From contig NZ_CP118574.1 in NCBI RefSeq assembly GCF_028898845.1, positions 806,001 through 870,000 on the forward strand: a stretch of DNA of 64,000 nucleotides. Reading direction: 5' to 3'. A model generated the notes under the pieces. That model was not told the DNA's origin. It was given only the letters and a program-made list of their open reading frames with translations, and did no database searches. Of this stretch, positions 33,843 through 45,079 are shown in pieces. Numbering within the stretch: position 1 is the stretch's first letter; every line of letters starts with the position of its first letter. This DNA comes from Streptomyces sp. WZ-12. Lineage in GTDB: Bacteria > Actinomycetota > Actinomycetes > Streptomycetales > Streptomycetaceae. A program made the translations under genes and the position numbers.

Positions 33843-34679
33843 CTACCCGTCCAGGCTCAGCACCATCGTCGGGCGTTCGATGACGTGGTCGTCGCGCAGC
33901 GGCCGCACGGCCGTGCCGATGGCGAAGAACTCGGTGGTGTGCCCGCCCCAGCGGTGGTTGTGGGAGTTGAGCTGCACCCCCACGATGCCCTCGGCGTGCA
34001 GTTCCTCCGCCTCCCGCTGCATCCGCTCCATCGCCAACTCCCGGGCGTCGTAGAGCGCTTGGGTGAACGGCTCGATCTCCACGTTCTTGCCGATGTTGGA
34101 GAACATCGAACCGATCTTCTGGTGGGCGATGTGGTACACGCAGGTGCCCATCACCATGCCCAGTGGGGCGTATCCGGCCCGGACCAGGGTCCAGAAGTCC
34201 TGTCCGCTCAGGTCCGAGGTGAACGGCTGCCCCTTGGCGTTGCGCCAGCTCCCGTTGCCGCCGGGCGCGGGCGCGTCCGCCTTGACCGCGGTGCCGATCG
34301 CGATGAACTCGGCGATGTCGTTGCCGAACTCCCGCGCCTCGACGGAGAGCCGCACGCCCACGATGCCGTCGGCGCCGAGCTGTGCCGCCTCGGCCTCCAT
34401 CCGGGTCATGGCCAACTCCCGGGCGTGATACATGGCCTGGCTCAACGTGGTGAGCTCCTGGTTCTTTCCCCAACGGCCGAGCTGGATGCCCACGTGGTAG
34501 ATCGAACTGCCCAGGACCAGGCCGAGCGGTCGGAACCCCGCCTCCCGCACGAGCAGGAACTCGTTGACCGTCAGGTCACTGGTGAAGAGCGAGCCCCCCG
34601 GCCGGCCGGGCTGGAGTTCGGCCAGCCGCCGCATCGCATCGGCCGGTACGCCCTGGGCGGTCGGGTCGGTGGCGGTCAT
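33843..34679 (-). CDS. Tandem YbjQ-type (heavy-metal-binding-like) domain protein
   Basis: Two copies of a ~110-residue domain are visible. Each has FTSDL, a segment such as FRPLGLVLGSSIYHVGIQ or YAPLGMVMGTCVYHIAHQ, a helix ARELAM.RM..EA, and a strand GIVGVRL or GIVGVQL ending in FIAIGTAV or FFAIGTAV. This is the YbjQ/UPF0145 family, named heavy-metal-binding without firm biochemical proof. No metal cluster rich in Cys/His is apparent. It shares the strand and close spacing with a second tandem protein upstream and a hypothetical protein downstream. Confidence 0.82.
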   Translation of the reverse strand: MTATDPTAQGVPADAMRRLAELQPGRPGGSLFTSDLTVNEFLLVREAGFRPLGLVLGSSIYHVGIQLGRWGKNQELTTLSQAMYHARELAMTRMEAEAAQLGADGIVGVRLSVEAREFGNDIAEFIAIGTAVKADAPAPGGNGSWRNAKGQPFTSDLSGQDFWTLVRAGYAPLGMVMGTCVYHIAHQKIGSMFSNIGKNVEIEPFTQALYDARELAMERMQREAEELHAEGIVGVQLNSHNHRWGGHTTEFFAIGTAVRPLRDDHVIERPTMVLSLDG

Positions 34680-34820: not shown

Positions 34821-35765
34821 TCACGTGGAACGCGCACGGCGCCGGTCGGGATCCAGTGGCATCACGGTCAGGGTGCGCGGCTGCGCCTCCCGGCGCACGG
34901 TGAAGGCGGCCACCGAGGTGCCTATCAGGGTGGCCTCGGCGACGTGGTCCTTCTGGTCGGAGTCCTTGTTGCGCCGGCGCGCCCGGACGCAGTCCTCGTG
35001 CCAGACCCGCAGTCGGTTGTCGCCCAGCACCACGCCGTCCGCTCCGGCGTGCCATGCCTGCTCGCCGATCCGTTGGCGGGCGTCATGACGGGTCAGCGCG
35101 ACCAACTGGCTCCAGCCGGTGACCTCCTGATTGCCGGCCGCGAACCAGTTCTGCCGCCGGGTGGTCCAGTCGTCGTGCCGGGAGCCGATGGCGAGCCCCA
35201 CCAGGAGGTCGACCGGCACCCACCCCGCGTCGATCAGCTTGGCGAACCCCTGGCCGTCCAGGTGCGTGGTGAAGGGGCGCTTCGGCCGCACGTCCCCCTG
35301 TGCCCGGACGGCGGTGCCGATCACCTGGAATTCGAAGCAGTGGGGCGCCGAGGGGAACGGGGCCATCGTCAGGTCCGCGGCCACCACACCGTCCCCGCCC
35401 AACGCCGTGCACTCCGCCGTCATCCGCGCGAGCGCCGCATGGCGCGCCGCCATCAGCACGTCGACCAGCGCCTTGGAGGCGGCGCCCTGCCCCGATACGG
35501 CGACCGGCGCCGGCCCGGAACCGCGCCCGGACCACCCCGCTGACCCGTAGCCGCAGTCGTAGTAGCGCCAGTTGGTCCCGCCGCCCGCCACGCGGTACAC
35601 GGCCGAGCCCAGCACCTGCCCGACCGGCTCGAAGCCCACCGATCTGAGCGCGGCGAACTCACCCGTCGACAGCGCCGAGGACCACGTCCCGCTGCGCCGC
35701 GCCTCGGCCGTACGCGCCGCAGCCACCGGTGGCAACCCACCGCCGGCAGACCACTCCCCGCTCAT
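34821..35765 (-). CDS. Second tandem YbjQ-type domain protein
   Basis: Also two YbjQ-like repeats but more divergent: the first contains VGFEPVGQVLGSAVYRVAGG and FEFQVIGTAVRAQG, the second AGWVPVDLLVGLAIGSRHDD and EATLIGTSVAAFTV. The repeat helix AARHAALARMTAECTALGGD is clear. The start at 35765 has GGAGGGGG five bases upstream; a much longer open frame exists but is not supported. First gene of the three-gene run. A surface or envelope stress role has been suggested for some family members, but nothing in the sequence settles it. Confidence 0.8.
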   Translation of the reverse strand: MSGEWSAGGGLPPVAAARTAEARRSGTWSSALSTGEFAALRSVGFEPVGQVLGSAVYRVAGGGTNWRYYDCGYGSAGWSGRGSGPAPVAVSGQGAASKALVDVLMAARHAALARMTAECTALGGDGVVAADLTMAPFPSAPHCFEFQVIGTAVRAQGDVRPKRPFTTHLDGQGFAKLIDAGWVPVDLLVGLAIGSRHDDWTTRRQNWFAAGNQEVTGWSQLVALTRHDARQRIGEQAWHAGADGVVLGDNRLRVWHEDCVRARRRNKDSDQKDHVAEATLIGTSVAAFTVRREAQPRTLTVMPLDPDRRRARST

Positions 35766-36881
35766 GGACACCCCCTCCAACTCCCCGGGAACGAGCCCTA
35801 GGAGAGCGAGTCTAGAGCGAGGGTCCGACAACGGAGGGTGCGGGGAGGGAGGAACGCACGGACGGGGAGCGTCAGTTGCCAGGCAACCCGGTGCGGTACC
35901 AGGCAGTGCGGTATCAACCCGGCGCGGTGCCGGCTCGGCCGTGGCAGGGCTCAGGCGCGCGGCCCATGCGTTGCCTGGCGTCCGCGAAGGACGGTTACGG
36001 CACGGTATCCACGTCAAACACCTGCACCCAATCGCCCGTGCGATGCCCAATTATTCGAACTAGCAAAAGCGTCCGATGAGACGACCGGCGCACCCGCGAC
36101 CAGTCCCGCAGAACGCGCCCTTCGAAGCGCTTTGCACGAACGGCCGAGCGAGACAAGTGCCGGCCCGAAACAACGGGTTCGCGCCCGCGCGTGGCGCAAA
36201 GACCACGGGCGGCGTTCGAGCGCGGGGGCATTTTCGAGTTGCACACCCGCCGCGTTTTCGATGAACCCCCAACGAAATCCGCACGTTTCGCCTCGCCCAC
36301 CCTTGAAGATATCGCCCCCTTAACCGGATCCCGCGAGTTCGCCTCCGGCAGTCCGGGGCCAACGAAACCATTACGCTCCGGTGAATTCTGCGACCCCTTC
36401 GGGGCGCCACGGGAGGCATCGACCGAGCCGAGGCGCCCCCGACAGAGGAGCGGAAGGAAATCCGACTCTTCGGTCAACTGTCGGATTGGATAGGGGTTTT
36501 CGGCCGCTCGGCCGGAACATGCGCGCGGGCGGGGAAGTTAACGAGAGAGGAGGGCCGACATCGGGCCGGCGGCCAGCACCGCCCCGCCTTCAACGGGGCA
36601 TTGACCTGGGACGGAGGCCACGATAGGCGCACGGAAGGGCGGCCTCCCGCTCCCGGCGGTGGCGCGGCACGTCACCGTGCCGCACGCGTCCGGGAGTTGA
36701 AGGCCGCGTTCACTTCCGCCCTATAAAGAACCCAAGGGAGGGAGAGTTGTCGAGCGATGCCCGGCCCCGCGCCGGGGGCTTCAGCCGTCCCGCTCCGTCG
36801 CACAAGAATGCGAGGGAATGGTCCGATGCAGGGCCGGGTACGATCTCTTTTCCGGCAATCAGCCAGAGGCCACTACCGCGA
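35766..36881. other. 1.1-kb gap before the lasso precursor gene
   Basis: No gene could be supported on either strand. The part from about 36030 to 36480 is clearly less GC-rich than its neighbours. A GC hairpin GCCCCGCGCCGGGGGC near 36763-36778 could end transcription from the lasso precursor gene. The promoter of the YbjQ-type operon must lie just above 35766. Confidence 0.45.
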
Positions 36882-37016
36882 CTACTGGGCCTTCTTGAAG
36901 CCGATGGTCGTGGCGTCCTTCTTCGTGTGGATCGTGCCGTCGGTGTCCTTGTTGAACTGGCCGACCTTGGCGGCAGCCGGCGGCATGTAACGCTCGGGAA
37001 GCTGCTTCTTGGACAT
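36882..37016 (-). CDS. Lasso peptide precursor
   Basis: A 44-residue peptide opens with MSKKQLPERYMPPAAAKVGQ. Its leader contains YMPPAAAKVG, matching the actinobacterial YxxPxLxxxG recognition motif (Ala at the Leu position), and has Thr25 at the -2 position of the predicted cleavage site. The predicted core is residues 27-44, GTIHTKKDATTIGFKKAQ: Gly1 can form a macrolactam with Asp8, giving an 8-residue ring and a 10-residue tail with no cysteine. The core is strongly basic (four Lys, one His). AGGAG lies six bases before ATG. Unlike most lasso clusters, the precursor is on the strand opposite to the cyclase, protease, RRE and exporter genes that begin about 435 bp away. Ring and cleavage assignments are inference from family rules. 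Confidence 0.88.
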   Translation of the reverse strand: MSKKQLPERYMPPAAAKVGQFNKDTDGTIHTKKDATTIGFKKAQ

Positions 37017-37128
37017 GACTTTCTCCTATCCATCTCGGTGGATTCCGAAGTGGCGCCGATTCATGTAAGCGGGTTCCCACCAGAGTGTCTACTCACGTAT
37101 AGCAACTCAAGCCAATACAAGACGCTTT

Positions 37129-37143
37129 CTTACCTGCGGTAAG
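37129..37143. promoter_or_regulatory. Palindrome in the divergent lasso promoter region
   Basis: CTTACCTGCGGTAAG is a perfect 6-3-6 dyad between the precursor gene (start 37016, minus) and the cyclase gene (plus). The surrounding 37020-37145 sequence is AT-richer than the neighbourhood and contains TATA-like steps (CGTATAGCAA). It is a candidate operator controlling the precursor. The rest of the 37017-37450 gap shows no gene. Confidence 0.5.
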
Positions 37144-37450
37144 AGTCACCGCGGGTCGCGACCGCCTTCGTTCGGAGGGATGGCGGGGCGCGGCAGAACG
37201 CGCGGCTCAATATCTCCCTGTACGCAGCACGGACTTGGCATATAGGGGTGGCGTAGGGGGTGCGCCGCCGGCGCCAAGTCGCCCGGCCTGAAGGGCATCG
37301 GAGCGAGCGCCGGTCGATCCGTTCCGTCACGCCAGTCATGGCGTGATCTCAACTGTGTGCAGTTGCGCGATCTCCGTCAGTGATGGACGGTGCTCCGGCG
37401 GCCGCGCCGGCGGCGCGGAAGTCGCCCTGATACCTGGTGGTGAGGCATTG

Positions 37451-39340
37451 CAATCCCCCAACGACAACAACCTCGTGGTCTTCCCGGACTCCCCGGGCGG
37501 AGCCTGGGCCCATCGCCAAGTCGAGTCCGCGGCACCGCAGATGGTGACCCATGCTTCCGGGCGACCGTGGTTGGCCGGCTCGTGGGACCCGGCGGACCTG
37601 GTGGTGGCGGACGCGGGCCCAGCGCGCGTTGCGGTGTTCGGCACGGTCTCCGTCACGTCGGAGCGCCTGTCCACGCTCATCTCCCAGGTGCGCACCCTGC
37701 CGGACCTGGACCGACTGGCCCGTCAACTGCCCGGCAGCGCACACCTGCTGGCGTCGGTCGACGGCCAGGTGCGGTTCCAGGGGACCGTCACCGGGTCCCG
37801 TTGCGTGTTCACCGCCTGTCTGGACGAGGTGCCGATCGCCGGTGACCGGGCCGACGTGTTGGCCGGGATCATCGGCGCGGAGCCGGACGAGGAGCTGCTC
37901 GCGGCGAGCGTGACCTCCGGCATGTTCTTCGCACCGTTGAGCGAACGCAGTTGGTGGCGCGGCGTGGAACAGGTGCCGGCGGACTCCTATCTCGTGCTGC
38001 CCGGCAACGGCTCGACGCGCACGGTGCGTTGGTGGCAGCCGCCGGAGCCGCACCTGTCCCTGACCGAGGGCGTCGATCAGGTGCGCGAGCGACTGCGGGA
38101 GGCGGTGGCCCTGCGGCAGCCCCGACAGGGCAGGCTGTCGGCGGACCTGTCGGGCGGCATGGACTCCACGTCGCTGTGCTTCCTGGCCGCCGAGCACCGC
38201 CCCGACCTGTTGACCTTCCGGTGGACCGGCGGCAGCGCGATCAACGACGACCCGTTCTACGCGGAGCGGGCCGCGCGCTCCCTGGAGCACGCCGAGCACC
38301 TGACCATGCCGGAGAGCAGCGCGCCGCCGGTGTTCTCCCCGCCGTACTGGACTTCCGACACGGAGGCGCCGCGGGCCACCACCCGGGGGATGAACGCCGT
38401 CCGCACCGGTATCCGACTGTTGGTCGAGCACGGTGCCACATGGCATCTGGCCGGGCACGGCGCCGACGAGTTGTTCACCGGCAGCGCCGCCTATCTGCAC
38501 ACGCTGTTGCGGCGCAGCCCGGTGACCGCCTGGCGTCAACTGCGCGCCCACCGGGCGCTGTCCCGCTGGCCGTTGGGGGCCAGCCTGTCCGAGCTGTTGC
38601 GCGGGGAGGACCTCGGCACGTGGTGGCGGCGGTGTGCCGATCAGCTCGCGCGCCCCGCGCCGGACAGTCCGGTCCCGGCCCTGGGGTGGGGGGCGCGGCT
38701 GCCGGCGACGCCATGGGCCACCGGGGACGCGGTGCGGACCACGCAGCGGCTCTTCCACGGCGTGGCGGCGGGGATCGCCCCCCTGGCCCCGGACCGCGGG
38801 CAGCACGAGGCGCTCACCGCGCTGCGCAGCGCCGGGCCCGTGTTGCGGTTGCTGTGCCGCGAGTACGCGGTCGAGGGGTTGCGCCTGGAACTGCCGTACC
38901 TGGATGACCGGGTGGTGGAGGCGGTGCTGTCGATCCAGCCCCACGAGCGCTACACCCCCTGGCGGTACAAGCCGGTGTTGGCCGAGGCGATGCGGGGTCT
39001 GGTGCCCGATGTGGTCCTCGACCGGTCCACCAAGGGGTACTGCGAGGAGTCCGTCGACCGCGCCATGCAGGACCACGTGCCGGACCTGTTGGAGCTGTTC
39101 GCGGACTCGCAGTTGGCGCGCCGCGGGCTGATCGACGTGGCGAAGTTCCGGACCACCTTGGGCACGCCGCCGCGCAGCTCCGATGTCTGGTCCGCACAGT
39201 TGGAAGCGACGCTGGGCGCCGAGCTGTGGTTGCGGGAGATCGCGGCCCGCTCCGGTGGCCGGTCGTCGGCGACCGCCGGCCTCGCCCACAGCGGCGCCAC
39301 CCCTCGTCCCCGTGTGTCCGATCCCGAGGAGACCCTGTGA
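37451..39340 (+). CDS. Lasso cyclase (asparagine synthetase-like, protein C)
   Basis: Lasso cyclases adenylate the ring Asp/Glu side chain and close the macrolactam. The protein has an N-terminal glutaminase-like region without a catalytic N-terminal cysteine (VVFPDSPGGAWAHRQ onward) and a C-terminal ATP-pyrophosphatase domain. The PP-loop is DLSGGMDSTSLCFLAAEHRP. HLAGHGADELFTGSAAYLHT and LRLELPYLDDRVVEAVLSI are also typical. The start is uncertain: the frame is open from 37343, but coding character begins near a TTG at 37451, which gives about 629 residues. The stop overlaps the next start by GTGA. Confidence 0.92.
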   Translation, partial: QSPNDNNLVVFPDSPGGAWAHRQVESAAPQMVTHASGRPWLAGSWDPADLVVADAGPARVAVFGTVSVTSERLSTLISQVRTLPDLDRLARQLPGSAHLLASVDGQVRFQGTVTGSRCVFTACLDEVPIAGDRADVLAGIIGAEPDEELLAASVTSGMFFAPLSERSWWRGVEQVPADSYLVLPGNGSTRTVRWWQPPEPHLSLTEGVDQVRERLREAVALRQPRQGRLSADLSGGMDSTSLCFLAAEHRPDLLTFRWTGGSAINDDPFYAERAARSLEHAEHLTMPESSAPPVFSPPYWTSDTEAPRATTRGMNAVRTGIRLLVEHGATWHLAGHGADELFTGSAAYLHTLLRRSPVTAWRQLRAHRALSRWPLGASLSELLRGEDLGTWWRRCADQLARPAPDSPVPALGWGARLPATPWATGDAVRTTQRLFHGVAAGIAPLAPDRGQHEALTALRSAGPVLRLLCREYAVEGLRLELPYLDDRVVEAVLSIQPHERYTPWRYKPVLAEAMRGLVPDVVLDRSTKGYCEESVDRAMQDHVPDLLELFADSQLARRGLIDVAKFRTTLGTPPRSSDVWSAQLEATLGAELWLREIAARSGGRSSATAGLAHSGATPRPRVSDPEETL

Positions 39341-39774
39341 CCAGCCCCCCGTGCGCGCTGCCGCCGCGCGTCCAACTGCCCCTGCATCGGCGGGTGTTGC
39401 CGCTGGCCGCGGTGGCCCTCGCCCGGCCGCTGGCCGCGCTGCCGCCCCGCTATCTGCGCGTCGTGCTCCAGGGCTTGCGCGTCGGTGCCCGTCCGAGCAG
39501 TGCCGCGCAGGCTTCCGCGGCCCGCGCCGCGGTGGTCGCGGTGAGCCTGCGCTGCGCGGTCCACAACTGTCTCCAACGGTCCATCGCCGCGGCCGTGTTG
39601 TGCCGCGTCAAGGGGACGTGGCCCACCTGGCAGACCGGCGTGCGCACCACGCCGTTCGCCGCCCACGCCTGGATCGAGGCGGACGGCCAGGTGATCGACG
39701 AACCGTACCCCGACGGCTACTACCGGCCGCTGCTCACCGTCGCCCCCACGATTCCCAAGCACGCGGCCCGCTAG
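39337..39774 (+). CDS. Lasso leader peptidase (transglutaminase-like, B2)
   Basis: A 145-residue papain/transglutaminase-like protease that removes the leader. The catalytic cysteine is in RCAVHNCLQRSIAAAVLCRV and the histidine in PFAAHAWIEADGQVID, the two hallmark segments of lasso B2 proteins. The GTG start overlaps the cyclase stop codon, so translation is coupled. A longer upstream frame inside the cyclase gene is not used. Confidence 0.92.
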   Translation: MTSPPCALPPRVQLPLHRRVLPLAAVALARPLAALPPRYLRVVLQGLRVGARPSSAAQASAARAAVVAVSLRCAVHNCLQRSIAAAVLCRVKGTWPTWQTGVRTTPFAAHAWIEADGQVIDEPYPDGYYRPLLTVAPTIPKHAAR

Positions 39775-39801
39775 GGCCATCTCACGGAGGAACGTCGCCC
39801 C

Positions 39802-40062
39802 ATGAAGCTCAGCCTGACCAGCCACACGCTCGCCACCGACACCGACGACGGCGCGGTGCTGATGAGCCAGCGCACCGGACACTACTGGCAGCTCAACCAG
39901 ACCGGCGCCTATGCGCTCCAACGCCTGCTCGACGGCCGCACCACCGACCAGGTGGCCGAGGAGTTCGCGGAACGGTTCGGCATCGGGTTGGACCAGGCAC
40001 GCGAGGACCTGACGGCGATGACCGACCAACTCCGGTCGTCCGGACTGGTGGAGGCGTCCTGA
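39802..40062 (+). CDS. Lasso RRE protein (PqqD-like, B1)
   Basis: An 86-residue PqqD-fold RiPP recognition element that binds the YxxP..G part of the leader and delivers it to the protease and cyclase. It shows the usual pattern: DDGAVLMSQRTGHYWQLNQT, GAYALQRLLDGRTTDQVAEE and a C-terminal LTAMTDQLRSSGLVE. ATG preceded by GGAGG. It sits between B2 and the exporter in the same strand run. Confidence 0.93.
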   Translation: MKLSLTSHTLATDTDDGAVLMSQRTGHYWQLNQTGAYALQRLLDGRTTDQVAEEFAERFGIGLDQAREDLTAMTDQLRSSGLVEAS

Positions 40063-40087
40063 GCCCGGTCGGTCCGGAGAGGGAGCG

Positions 40088-41887
40088 GTGCGCTCGATGC
40101 TTCGACAACTGTGGACGTTGACCCGGGGGCAGCGCCGTTCGTTGAGCGCCGCCCTGCTCCTCACCCTGGTCGCGGCCGCGGTCGGCGTCGCCCAACCACT
40201 GGCCGCCAAGGGGGTGGTTGACGCCCTCACCGCGCACCGGCCGCTGTTCCTGCCGGTGGCGTGCCTGGTCCTGCTGTTGCTGTGCCAGGCACTGATCGGT
40301 TCCGGCGCCGCCTTCCTGTTGGAACGGGCCGGCGAGCGGTTCGTGTTGGACACCCGCACCAGGCTGTTCGAGCGCCTGTTGCGGATTCGGATGGACGCCT
40401 TCGACCGGCTGCGCGTGGGCGACCTCATGGCGCGCGCCTCCACGGACGTGGTCGTCCTGCGGGAGGCGCTGACGCACGTCTCCGTCCAACTCGCCACCAA
40501 CCTCTGCATCGCGCTGGGCAGTGTCGGCGCGATGTTCGTGATCGATCCGGTACTGATGTTGCTCATCCTGAGCGTGCTGCTCGTCGGCAGCATCGTGATC
40601 AAGGTGCTGTCGACGCGGATCGGTCGGGTGTCGATGCGGCTCCAGACCGCCGTCGGGGCGATCTCGGCGGGGTTGGAACGCGCCCTGTCGGGCCTGCGCA
40701 CGGTCCGTGCCAACCGCGCCGAACGGCGCGAGATCGACCACCTGACCGGGCTGGCCCAACACGCCTACGAGGAGGCGCTGCACAGCGCCAGGCTCACCGC
40801 GACGATCGCGCCCGTGGCCCAGATGGCCATCAACGCGGCCTTCGTCCTGGTCCTGTTGGTCGGCGCGGCCCGCGTGGACGAGGGGGCGCTCTCGCTCGGC
40901 GCGTTGGTGGCGATCCTGCTCTACGCCAATCAACTCGGTGGCCCCGTCACCGAGTTGATCGAGGGCGTCGCCTCGGTGAGCAGGGCGAAGGGCGCCATCG
41001 AACGCATCGAGGAGGTCTACTCGTTCCCCACCGAGGACCGCGCCCTCGCGCCGGCGGGCCGCGGCACGCCGCGTCGGCAACCGTCCCACCACGCCCCCGC
41101 GGCCCCGGCGTTGGAGCTCCGCGACCTGCGGTTCGGATACACCCCCGACACTCCGGTGCTCCAGGGGCTGTCGCTGACCGTCCCGCCGCACGCCCTCGTC
41201 GCCCTGGTCGGCCCGTCCGGAGCCGGCAAGTCCACCACCTTCGCGCTCGTCAACCGGTTCTACGAGCCGTGGAGCGGCGACCTCCGCATCGACGGGCACG
41301 CGGTCGCGGACCTCGGGCTCGACGCCTGGCGCTCGCGGATCGGCTGGGTCGAGCAGGACTGTCCGATGCTGCACGGCACGTTGCGGGAGAACCTCTGCTA
41401 CGCCGCGCCCGACGTCACCACCGACGACGACGCCCTGTGGCGGGTCCTCGACCTCGTCAACCTCGCCCAGCGGGTCCGCCACCTCCCGGCCGGGTTGGAC
41501 ACCGGGATCGGCGAACGGGGCGCGCGCCTGTCGAGCGGCGAACGCCAACGGCTCGCCATCGCCCGGGCGATCCTGGCCCGCCCCCGACTGCTGCTGATGG
41601 ACGAGCCCACCGCCCACCTCGACCCCGCCAACGAGGCCGCCCTGACGGTCACCCTGCACAACCTCCGGCGGGAGTGCGCCCTGCTCGTCATCGCGCACCG
41701 GATGACCACCATCGAGACGGCCGACTCCATCGTCATGCTCGACGGCGGAACGGCCCACGCCACCGGAACGTACGCCGAACTCCTGCGCACCGACGCCGGG
41801 TTCCAACGACACGTCGCCGGCGGAACGCGACTACCGCCAACTCTCGACCAGGGACCGGTGGTTGTCCCCGACCACCCCACCGTCTGA
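40088..41887 (+). CDS. ABC exporter of the lasso cluster (D)
   Basis: A fused half-transporter of 599 residues: six membrane helices (about 20-310) followed by the ATPase domain (about 345-580) with Walker A GPSGAGKST, Q-loop region, signature LSSGERQRLAIARAILARPR and Walker B LLLMDEPTAHLD. Exporters of this kind release the mature lasso peptide and often give immunity to the producer. The start is a GTG 26 bases after the B1 gene. No isopeptidase, acetyltransferase or other tailoring gene follows in the operon. Confidence 0.93.
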   Translation: MRSMLRQLWTLTRGQRRSLSAALLLTLVAAAVGVAQPLAAKGVVDALTAHRPLFLPVACLVLLLLCQALIGSGAAFLLERAGERFVLDTRTRLFERLLRIRMDAFDRLRVGDLMARASTDVVVLREALTHVSVQLATNLCIALGSVGAMFVIDPVLMLLILSVLLVGSIVIKVLSTRIGRVSMRLQTAVGAISAGLERALSGLRTVRANRAERREIDHLTGLAQHAYEEALHSARLTATIAPVAQMAINAAFVLVLLVGAARVDEGALSLGALVAILLYANQLGGPVTELIEGVASVSRAKGAIERIEEVYSFPTEDRALAPAGRGTPRRQPSHHAPAAPALELRDLRFGYTPDTPVLQGLSLTVPPHALVALVGPSGAGKSTTFALVNRFYEPWSGDLRIDGHAVADLGLDAWRSRIGWVEQDCPMLHGTLRENLCYAAPDVTTDDDALWRVLDLVNLAQRVRHLPAGLDTGIGERGARLSSGERQRLAIARAILARPRLLLMDEPTAHLDPANEAALTVTLHNLRRECALLVIAHRMTTIETADSIVMLDGGTAHATGTYAELLRTDAGFQRHVAGGTRLPPTLDQGPVVVPDHPTV

Positions 41888-44470: not shown

Positions 44471-45079
44471 ATGTCGACAACGAACACCCCGACGGCGGCG
44501 ACGATCGACGACGCTCCGCTGATCGGTCGCACCTTGGCCCGCGCCTTCGACGACGACCCGATGATGCGGTGGTTCTTCACCGACGACGCCTCGCGCGCGA
44601 CGAACCTGGGCCGCTACTTCACCACCCTCTTCACCCGGCAGTACCTCCGGCACTGCGTGTGCGAGCGGACCGCGGCGGCGGCCGCCTTCTGGGTCCCGCC
44701 GGAGGCGCGGGCCAAGGCCGTTCCGGACGCGGAGACCATCGCGGAGCTGGTGGAGCTCCTCGGCGACCGGGCGCCGCTGTTCCGGGACACCGTCGAGGCG
44801 GCCGCCGCACACGCGCCCCAGGAACCGCACTGGTACCTGGCGGTGATCGGTGCCGACCCGGCCGCCCAGGGCCGGGGCCACGGGGCCGCCCTGCTCCGCT
44901 CGGGGCTGGCCAAGGCCGACGCGGAGGGCCTGCCCGCCTATCTGGAGTCCTCCAAGCCGGACAACCTGTCCTTCTACGAGCACTTCGGCTTCACGGTGCG
45001 TGCGGAGCTGCACCTGCCGGAGGGCGGGCCGGTGTTGTGGGCGATGCGCCGCGATCCGCGCCGCCCGGCCGGGGCCTAG
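44471..45079 (+). CDS. GNAT-family N-acetyltransferase
   Basis: A 202-residue GNAT protein. The acetyl-CoA binding motif is GADPAAQGRGHGAALLRSGL and the C-terminal motif B is LESSKPDNLSFYEHFGFTV. The N-terminal part (APLIGRTLARAFDDDPMMRW) matches the group often found beside regulators in streptomycetes. The acceptor is unknown. It is a single gene. Confidence 0.9.
   Translation: MSTTNTPTAATIDDAPLIGRTLARAFDDDPMMRWFFTDDASRATNLGRYFTTLFTRQYLRHCVCERTAAAAAFWVPPEARAKAVPDAETIAELVELLGDRAPLFRDTVEAAAAHAPQEPHWYLAVIGADPAAQGRGHGAALLRSGLAKADAEGLPAYLESSKPDNLSFYEHFGFTVRAELHLPEGGPVLWAMRRDPRRPAGA

Follow-up and report, generated by a model that had tools for sequence, protein, structure and literature searches.

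A lasso peptide cluster of Streptomyces sp. WZ-12 whose precursor block differs in orientation from that of an orthologous locus

A locus of Streptomyces sp. WZ-12 very probably holds a complete lasso peptide cluster with the precursor gene divergent from those of the enzymes. As the comparison with orthologous sequences suggests, this layout arose when a block of about 320–350 bp changed its orientation within the ortholog family. This block, made up of the 5' UTR, the precursor gene and a 3' hairpin, differs in orientation among the orthologs, since the precursor of one of them, that of Streptomyces sp. FH025, points toward the cyclase gene. The locus adds to the known kind a predicted lasso peptide whose core is unrecorded in the literature searched, and it offers an instructive natural rearrangement.

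Gene content of the locus

The locus is included in the window, that is, the whole stretch of 64,000 nucleotides analyzed (G000:C1:806001-870000) from the 9.5 Mb genome of Streptomyces sp. WZ-12, and all positions given without a locus name refer to it. The full set of genes proposed in the original prediction (precursor, cyclase, B2, B1 and ABC exporter) was confirmed by domain and NCBIfam matches. The cyclase-B2-B1-ABC operon is intact at 37448-41887 (+) and lies head-to-head with the 44-aa precursor gene, whose ORF was found exactly where it had been placed, at 36882-37016 (-). The cyclase (C; 37448-39340, +) is of the Asn-synthase type, with an Asn_synthase domain (E 2.2e-40) and an SGGMDS loop. 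Its start had been assigned to 37451 and is most likely the TTG at 37448, a codon aligned with GTG in FH025 and in Streptomyces sp. RPT161. It is followed by the transglutaminase-like B2 leader protease (39337-39774, +), with a GTG start indicated by the orthologs and matches to Transglut_core3 (E 1.2e-26) and to the NCBIfam lasso B2 model (105.8 bits, cut-off 33), and by the PqqD-like B1 leader-recognition protein (39802-40062, +), which matched PqqD (E 1e-16) and the NCBIfam lasso PqqD model (93.1 bits, cut-off 70). The last gene encodes the ABC exporter (D; 40088-41887, +), assigned by domain match, and its true start is perhaps the ATG at 40097, where ATG stands in two orthologs. Cyclase, B2 and B1, whose joint presence was taken as the mark of a lasso cluster, were all found. 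Beside the cassette there are two adjoining genes (33843-34679 and 34821-35708, -) assigned to YbjQ, a putative heavy-metal-binding family.

The precursor gene encodes the leader MSKKQLPERYMPPAAAKVGQFNKDTD (codons 37016-36939) and the core GTIHTKKDATTIGFKKAQ (codons 36938-36885), followed by the stop codon (36884-36882), all on the minus strand. A few bases 5' of the ATG there is a ribosome-binding site, AGGAGAAA (37020-37027, -), whose GGAGAA is kept in the four orthologous loci. Lasso leaders carry a motif consisting of YxxP, G and Thr at -2, and the WZ-12 leader presents it in its strict form. The strict leader-core motif was found in a single ORF of the 64 kb window, which is the 44-aa precursor; in 40 order-2 Markov shuffles, used to estimate chance, it averaged 0.175 occurrences and never exceeded 2. 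The claim of a lasso leader held as to the motif but not as to the curated NCBI model lasso_leader_L3, on which the WZ-12 leader reached 12.4 bits, under the cut-off of 19. The leaders of the three orthologs gave 19.6, 19.3, and 20.7 bits, all of them over the cut-off. A second precursor near the operon was rejected, since the two further loose matches detected between 35.5 and 43.5 kb are both without the leader motif. Judged by the rarity of the motif and by its conservation beside orthologous enzymes in three further species, the precursor is more than a chance ORF.

Orthologous loci

The contig search with the cyclase gave four loci, three of them from Streptomyces (78–80% identity in the best segments) and one from Amorphoplanes (37%). 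An orthologous precursor is present in each of the three Streptomyces, namely RPT161 (L009, also L052), Streptomyces pinistramenti (L010) and FH025 (L048/L051, L012), and the order C-B2-B1-D is identical in the three cassettes. In that of FH025, the precursor has the core GTIHVSKDASTPGFKKS and the C, B2, B1, and D proteins are 70–78% identical to those of WZ-12. The search with the precursor identified 3 of the 392 genomes of a genus sample at E 0.01, the WZ-12 genome included and one of them through residues 3-28 only, and 2 of the 199 of a sample of relatives at E 0.05, again with WZ-12 included and the other being a weak partial match; the number of relatives is a lower bound.

Nucleotide similarity starts at 36734 (S. 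pinistramenti) or 36748 (RPT161) and stops at 41805-41816, within the exporter gene, in the comparisons with RPT161, S. pinistramenti and FH025. Outside the cassette, the flanks showed no similarity among the loci compared, two of which (L009 and L010) start at the end of a contig. The cassette appears to be self-contained and placed in differing surroundings. The plasmid search with the cyclase gave short partial matches in 3 records, covering at most 12% of the query. The locus of each ortholog genome (L009, L010, L012/L048) is near or across a contig end, which may reflect a feature that is difficult to assemble. A DDE transposase gene is located just past the precursor in RPT161 (L009 766-2013, -), and could have taken part in movement or rearrangement.

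The block of differing orientation

The precursor is divergent from the cyclase in the window, in RPT161 and in S. pinistramenti, whereas in FH025 both genes share a strand and the precursor precedes the cyclase by about 172 bp. By blastn, 353 bp of RPT161 (L052 2477-2829) matched 316 bp of FH025 (L051 13648-13333) in opposite orientation (71%). This block includes about 55 bp 5' of the precursor and about 130–160 bp past its stop codon, and contains the ribosome-binding site, the precursor gene and the hairpin. In the window, the conserved block, with the 5' UTR, the precursor and the 3' region, occupies 36734-37093 (-), as defined by blastn against L010 and L052 and by a four-way alignment; blastn of the window against FH025 matched only the precursor part (128 bp), the rest of the block coming from the four-way alignment.

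The hairpin located 3' of the precursor (36760-36838, -) was identified by its inverted repeat, fold z-scores and consensus pairs, and is kept in the four orthologous loci, with z-scores of -3.37 in the window, -5.29 in RPT161, -5.37 in S. pinistramenti and -3.14 in FH025. Its consensus has an 11-pair main stem; the pair at columns 55/118 varies on both sides (U-A, U-G, C-G) and two stem pairs are interrupted, each in a single sequence. In FH025, the hairpin stands between the precursor and the cyclase; the flipped loci retain it 3' of the precursor, but there the enzymes do not follow it. The scans of the region 36.6–37.6 kb identified no intrinsic terminator, the hairpin being without a T-run, and no sigma-70-like site on either side, and no Rfam match was obtained up to E 0.1 at 36.5–37.6 kb. 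Inverted repeats of the kind that forms this hairpin are described in many lasso clusters, with a proposed regulatory role, in the available part of PMC5974421.

The spacer between the precursor block and the cyclase (37094-37405) had no blastn match to FH025 and is poorly conserved in the alignment, except for a stretch which in the three flipped loci bears the palindrome CAACT-N6-AGTTG (37350-37365, +), a candidate operator of the enzyme operon. This palindrome was not found in the FH025 loci searched. Genome-wide, it was present at 8 places, the same number as the control, and so it is not enriched.

Probable direction and number of flips

The flipped orientation is probably derived from a same-strand ancestor, since in the outgroups precursor and cyclase share a strand. 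Among the more distant cyclase relatives L018-L030 and L036, all 14 precursors identified with the first pattern were on the cyclase strand, and L036 presented an extra opposite-strand match to the pattern, at a place where its real precursor is encoded by the other strand. This first pattern gave no convincing precursor in L031-L035 and L037-L045. The same-strand Streptomyces clusters, of which L028 (G298) is an example, have cyclases with 46–50% identity and leaders of the same type, but differ from WZ-12 in their same-strand precursors and unrelated cores. The L028 precursor (1358-1489) has an Arg-rich core, GRPGPWHDYRPRAWRW, with a net charge of +3 as in WZ-12.

In a cyclase tree of 15 rows, 11 of them outgroups, the three flipped loci grouped together (SH-aLRT/UFboot 82/79, AU 0.885); the AU test rejected neither the grouping of FH025 with S. 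pinistramenti (0.173) nor a basal position of the window (0.151). The concatenated tree of 5 rows, whose outgroup exporter gave no more than a partial match (at 33%), placed the window as basal (UFboot 88) and FH025 with S. pinistramenti (62). Finally, in a tree of 24 rows the four orthologous loci fell inside a 100/100 clade without a resolved order. A single flip from a same-strand ancestor is favored, and a reversal in FH025 is possible.

The presence of both orientations within one ortholog family, and the position of FH025 inside the flipped group in the 5-row tree, would also agree with a precursor segment that is reversible or flips repeatedly, instead of one old inversion. In the window, L009 and L010, the precursor lies between imperfect inverted repeats of 15–17 nt (80–82%, figures without a chance control). 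However, these repeats differ in sequence and place between loci, FH025 has no such repeat listed apart from the hairpin itself, the shared cassette is without a recombinase and the larger cyclase tree favors a single flip, all of which makes a switching segment improbable.

Precursor orientation in other lasso clusters

A census of precursor orientation was based on the B1 matches in 199 Streptomyces genomes; 85 of these matches were over the cut-off, one being that of the window. It took 77 of the other 84 loci, plus the second locus of the same genome, which is below the cut-off, giving 78 loci; the 7 loci outside the census were already covered as L019, L020, L022, L024, L025, L030, and L036. 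A cyclase match was found in 76 of the 78 loci and was absent from the other 2. Among those 76, a strict precursor was on the same strand in 71 and on the opposite strand in none, and the 5 remaining loci gave no strict precursor, so an unusual layout could be missed there. Two of the 71 same-strand matches (L113 and L114) look spurious, which leaves 69 convincing ones. In these 69, the gap between precursor and cyclase had a median of 52 bp and was at least 150 bp in 9 of them. The divergent precursor layout is rare in Streptomyces.

The rarity that had been predicted for an opposite-strand precursor is consequently correct for Streptomyces but not for lasso peptides as such, to which this layout is not new because microcin J25 has it. 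In the microcin J25 plasmid record (one of 43), mcjA is divergent from the genes for B2, cyclase and exporter. As in WZ-12, therefore, the precursor of this Escherichia coli plasmid system (mcjA/mcjBCD) is head-to-head with B2, cyclase and ABC exporter. An acidic side chain closes the 8-residue ring of microcin J25, as predicted for that of WZ-12. On the other hand, it is enterobacterial, its order is B2-C-D, no separate B1 is annotated and the core is unrelated; moreover, the WZ-12 layout arose in a Streptomyces family with same-strand relatives. The mcj genes form two operons according to the accessible part of PMC9517006, and the portions available of PMC7549694 and PMC6784204 contain nothing on mcjA orientation. 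Likewise, precursor orientation is not addressed in the available portions of PMC12637814, PMC7533575, and PMC11006600.

Proposed biosynthesis and regulation

As gene content and conservation suggest, in a complete cluster with an inverted precursor block B1 would bind the leader of the 44-aa precursor, B2 would cleave after Asp(-1), the cyclase would link the Gly1 amine to the Asp8 side chain so that the ring encloses the tail ATTIGFKKAQ, and the lasso product would leave the cell through the ABC protein. For this product, M 1926.07 was calculated ([M+2H]2+ 964.04, [M+3H]3+ 643.03). The precursor would retain its own promoter and its 3' hairpin after the flip, and the enzymes, no longer reached through the hairpin, would need a promoter in the new spacer. 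One transcript over precursor and enzymes is excluded because their strands are opposite, and the sequence basis for a separate control of substrate and enzymes appears to be present. Only tentatively do we propose the more complete account, somewhat less probable than its contrary, in which a self-contained expression unit of promoter, precursor and stabilizing 3' hairpin flipped whole, the enzymes were freed from a read-through attenuated by the hairpin, and a new, palindrome-bearing promoter gave separate regulation. If true, this would be a natural counterpart, independent of microcin J25, of the engineered clusters in which a promoter is set between the precursor gene and those of the enzymes. 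When the intergenic region was swapped for a promoter, a 2–4 fold rise was obtained in one host and a variable outcome in another, as given in the part of PMC5974421 available. In the family of WZ-12 and its orthologs, an inversion seems to have brought about a comparable change. FH025, with the hairpin between a same-strand precursor and the cyclase, and the flipped loci constitute a natural matched pair for the role of the hairpin in that position.

The core peptide

Gly1 and Asp8, which had been predicted to be placed for an 8-residue ring, are kept in the four orthologous cores, and G1, T2, I3, K7, D8, A9, T11, G13, F14, K15, and K16 are invariant among them. The WZ-12 core has four Lys, and the context of the ring Asp is K7-D8-A9. 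The literature text search identified no paper with KDATT inside a word together with 'lasso', nor any pairing 'lasso peptide' with 'Streptomyces pinistramenti'. The core, already considered unfamiliar in the original prediction, is unrecorded in the literature searched and conserved in four species. In contrast, the strong positive charge attributed to it was overstated. Its net charge is +3 (+3, +4, and +2 in the three orthologous cores), which ties the top of 49 Streptomyces cores compared, these being selected cores and not every row, with the non-Gly ones trimmed by eye. This value is well below the +7 in 17 aa given for lariocidin in the available part of PMC13352647.

The four Lys, a GNAT acetyltransferase gene at 44471-45079 (+), about 2.6 kb downstream of the exporter, and the albusnodin/ikarugamycin model as the best NCBIfam cyclase match could point to an acetylated basic lasso peptide of the albusnodin or the lariocidin/triculamin type, with the GNAT modifying Lys. 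We consider this very unlikely. The cyclase reached 238.9 bits, under the cut-off of 300 of the albusnodin model NF033561, and there is no acetyltransferase gene in 36734-41887, so the albusnodin type was rejected; albusnodin has albT, according to the accessible part of PMC9266682, while the cassette shared by WZ-12 and its orthologs is without an acetyltransferase. The GNAT gene lies outside this cassette, with at least three genes in between, and it probably does not belong to it since the GNAT found near the RPT161 locus is of a different Pfam family. Lariocidin and triculamin are basic, Asp-ringed lasso peptides, as predicted for WZ-12, but differ by their +7 in 17 aa, a conserved Gly beside the ring Asp and acetyltransferase self-resistance (available parts of PMC11451635 and PMC13352647). 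With Lys and Ala as neighbors of Asp8 and a net charge far under +7, the WZ-12 core has neither the Gly context nor the charge of this group, which was also rejected.

That the small ORF arose by chance, or that it encodes a tiny calcium-binding peptide of the EF-hand kind, an idea based on the likeness of NKDTDGTIHTKK to an EF-hand loop, is scarcely credible: EF-hand proteins were the top of a PDB sequence search but with weak values (0.036, lanmodulin 0.047, calmodulin 0.24), and the WZ-12 leader is under the lasso-leader cut-off, but none of the six precursors scanned matched a Pfam EF-hand family up to E 10, the three orthologous leaders are over that cut-off, the strict motif is rare and the ORF is beside orthologous lasso enzymes in four genomes. 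EF-hand loops have Asp at position 1 and Glu at position 12. The four orthologs, by contrast, have N, T, N or S at position 1 and K at position 12. The EF-hand-like stretch is the leader-core junction NKDTDGTIHTKKD (36940-36900, -).

Another lasso locus of the WZ-12 genome (L162; G000:C2:3600-12000) is on a 378 kb contig and has a B1 match below the cut-off. Its precursor is on the same strand as its enzymes and is an acidic peptide whose core starts GTNNFDHADDTEYKNA.
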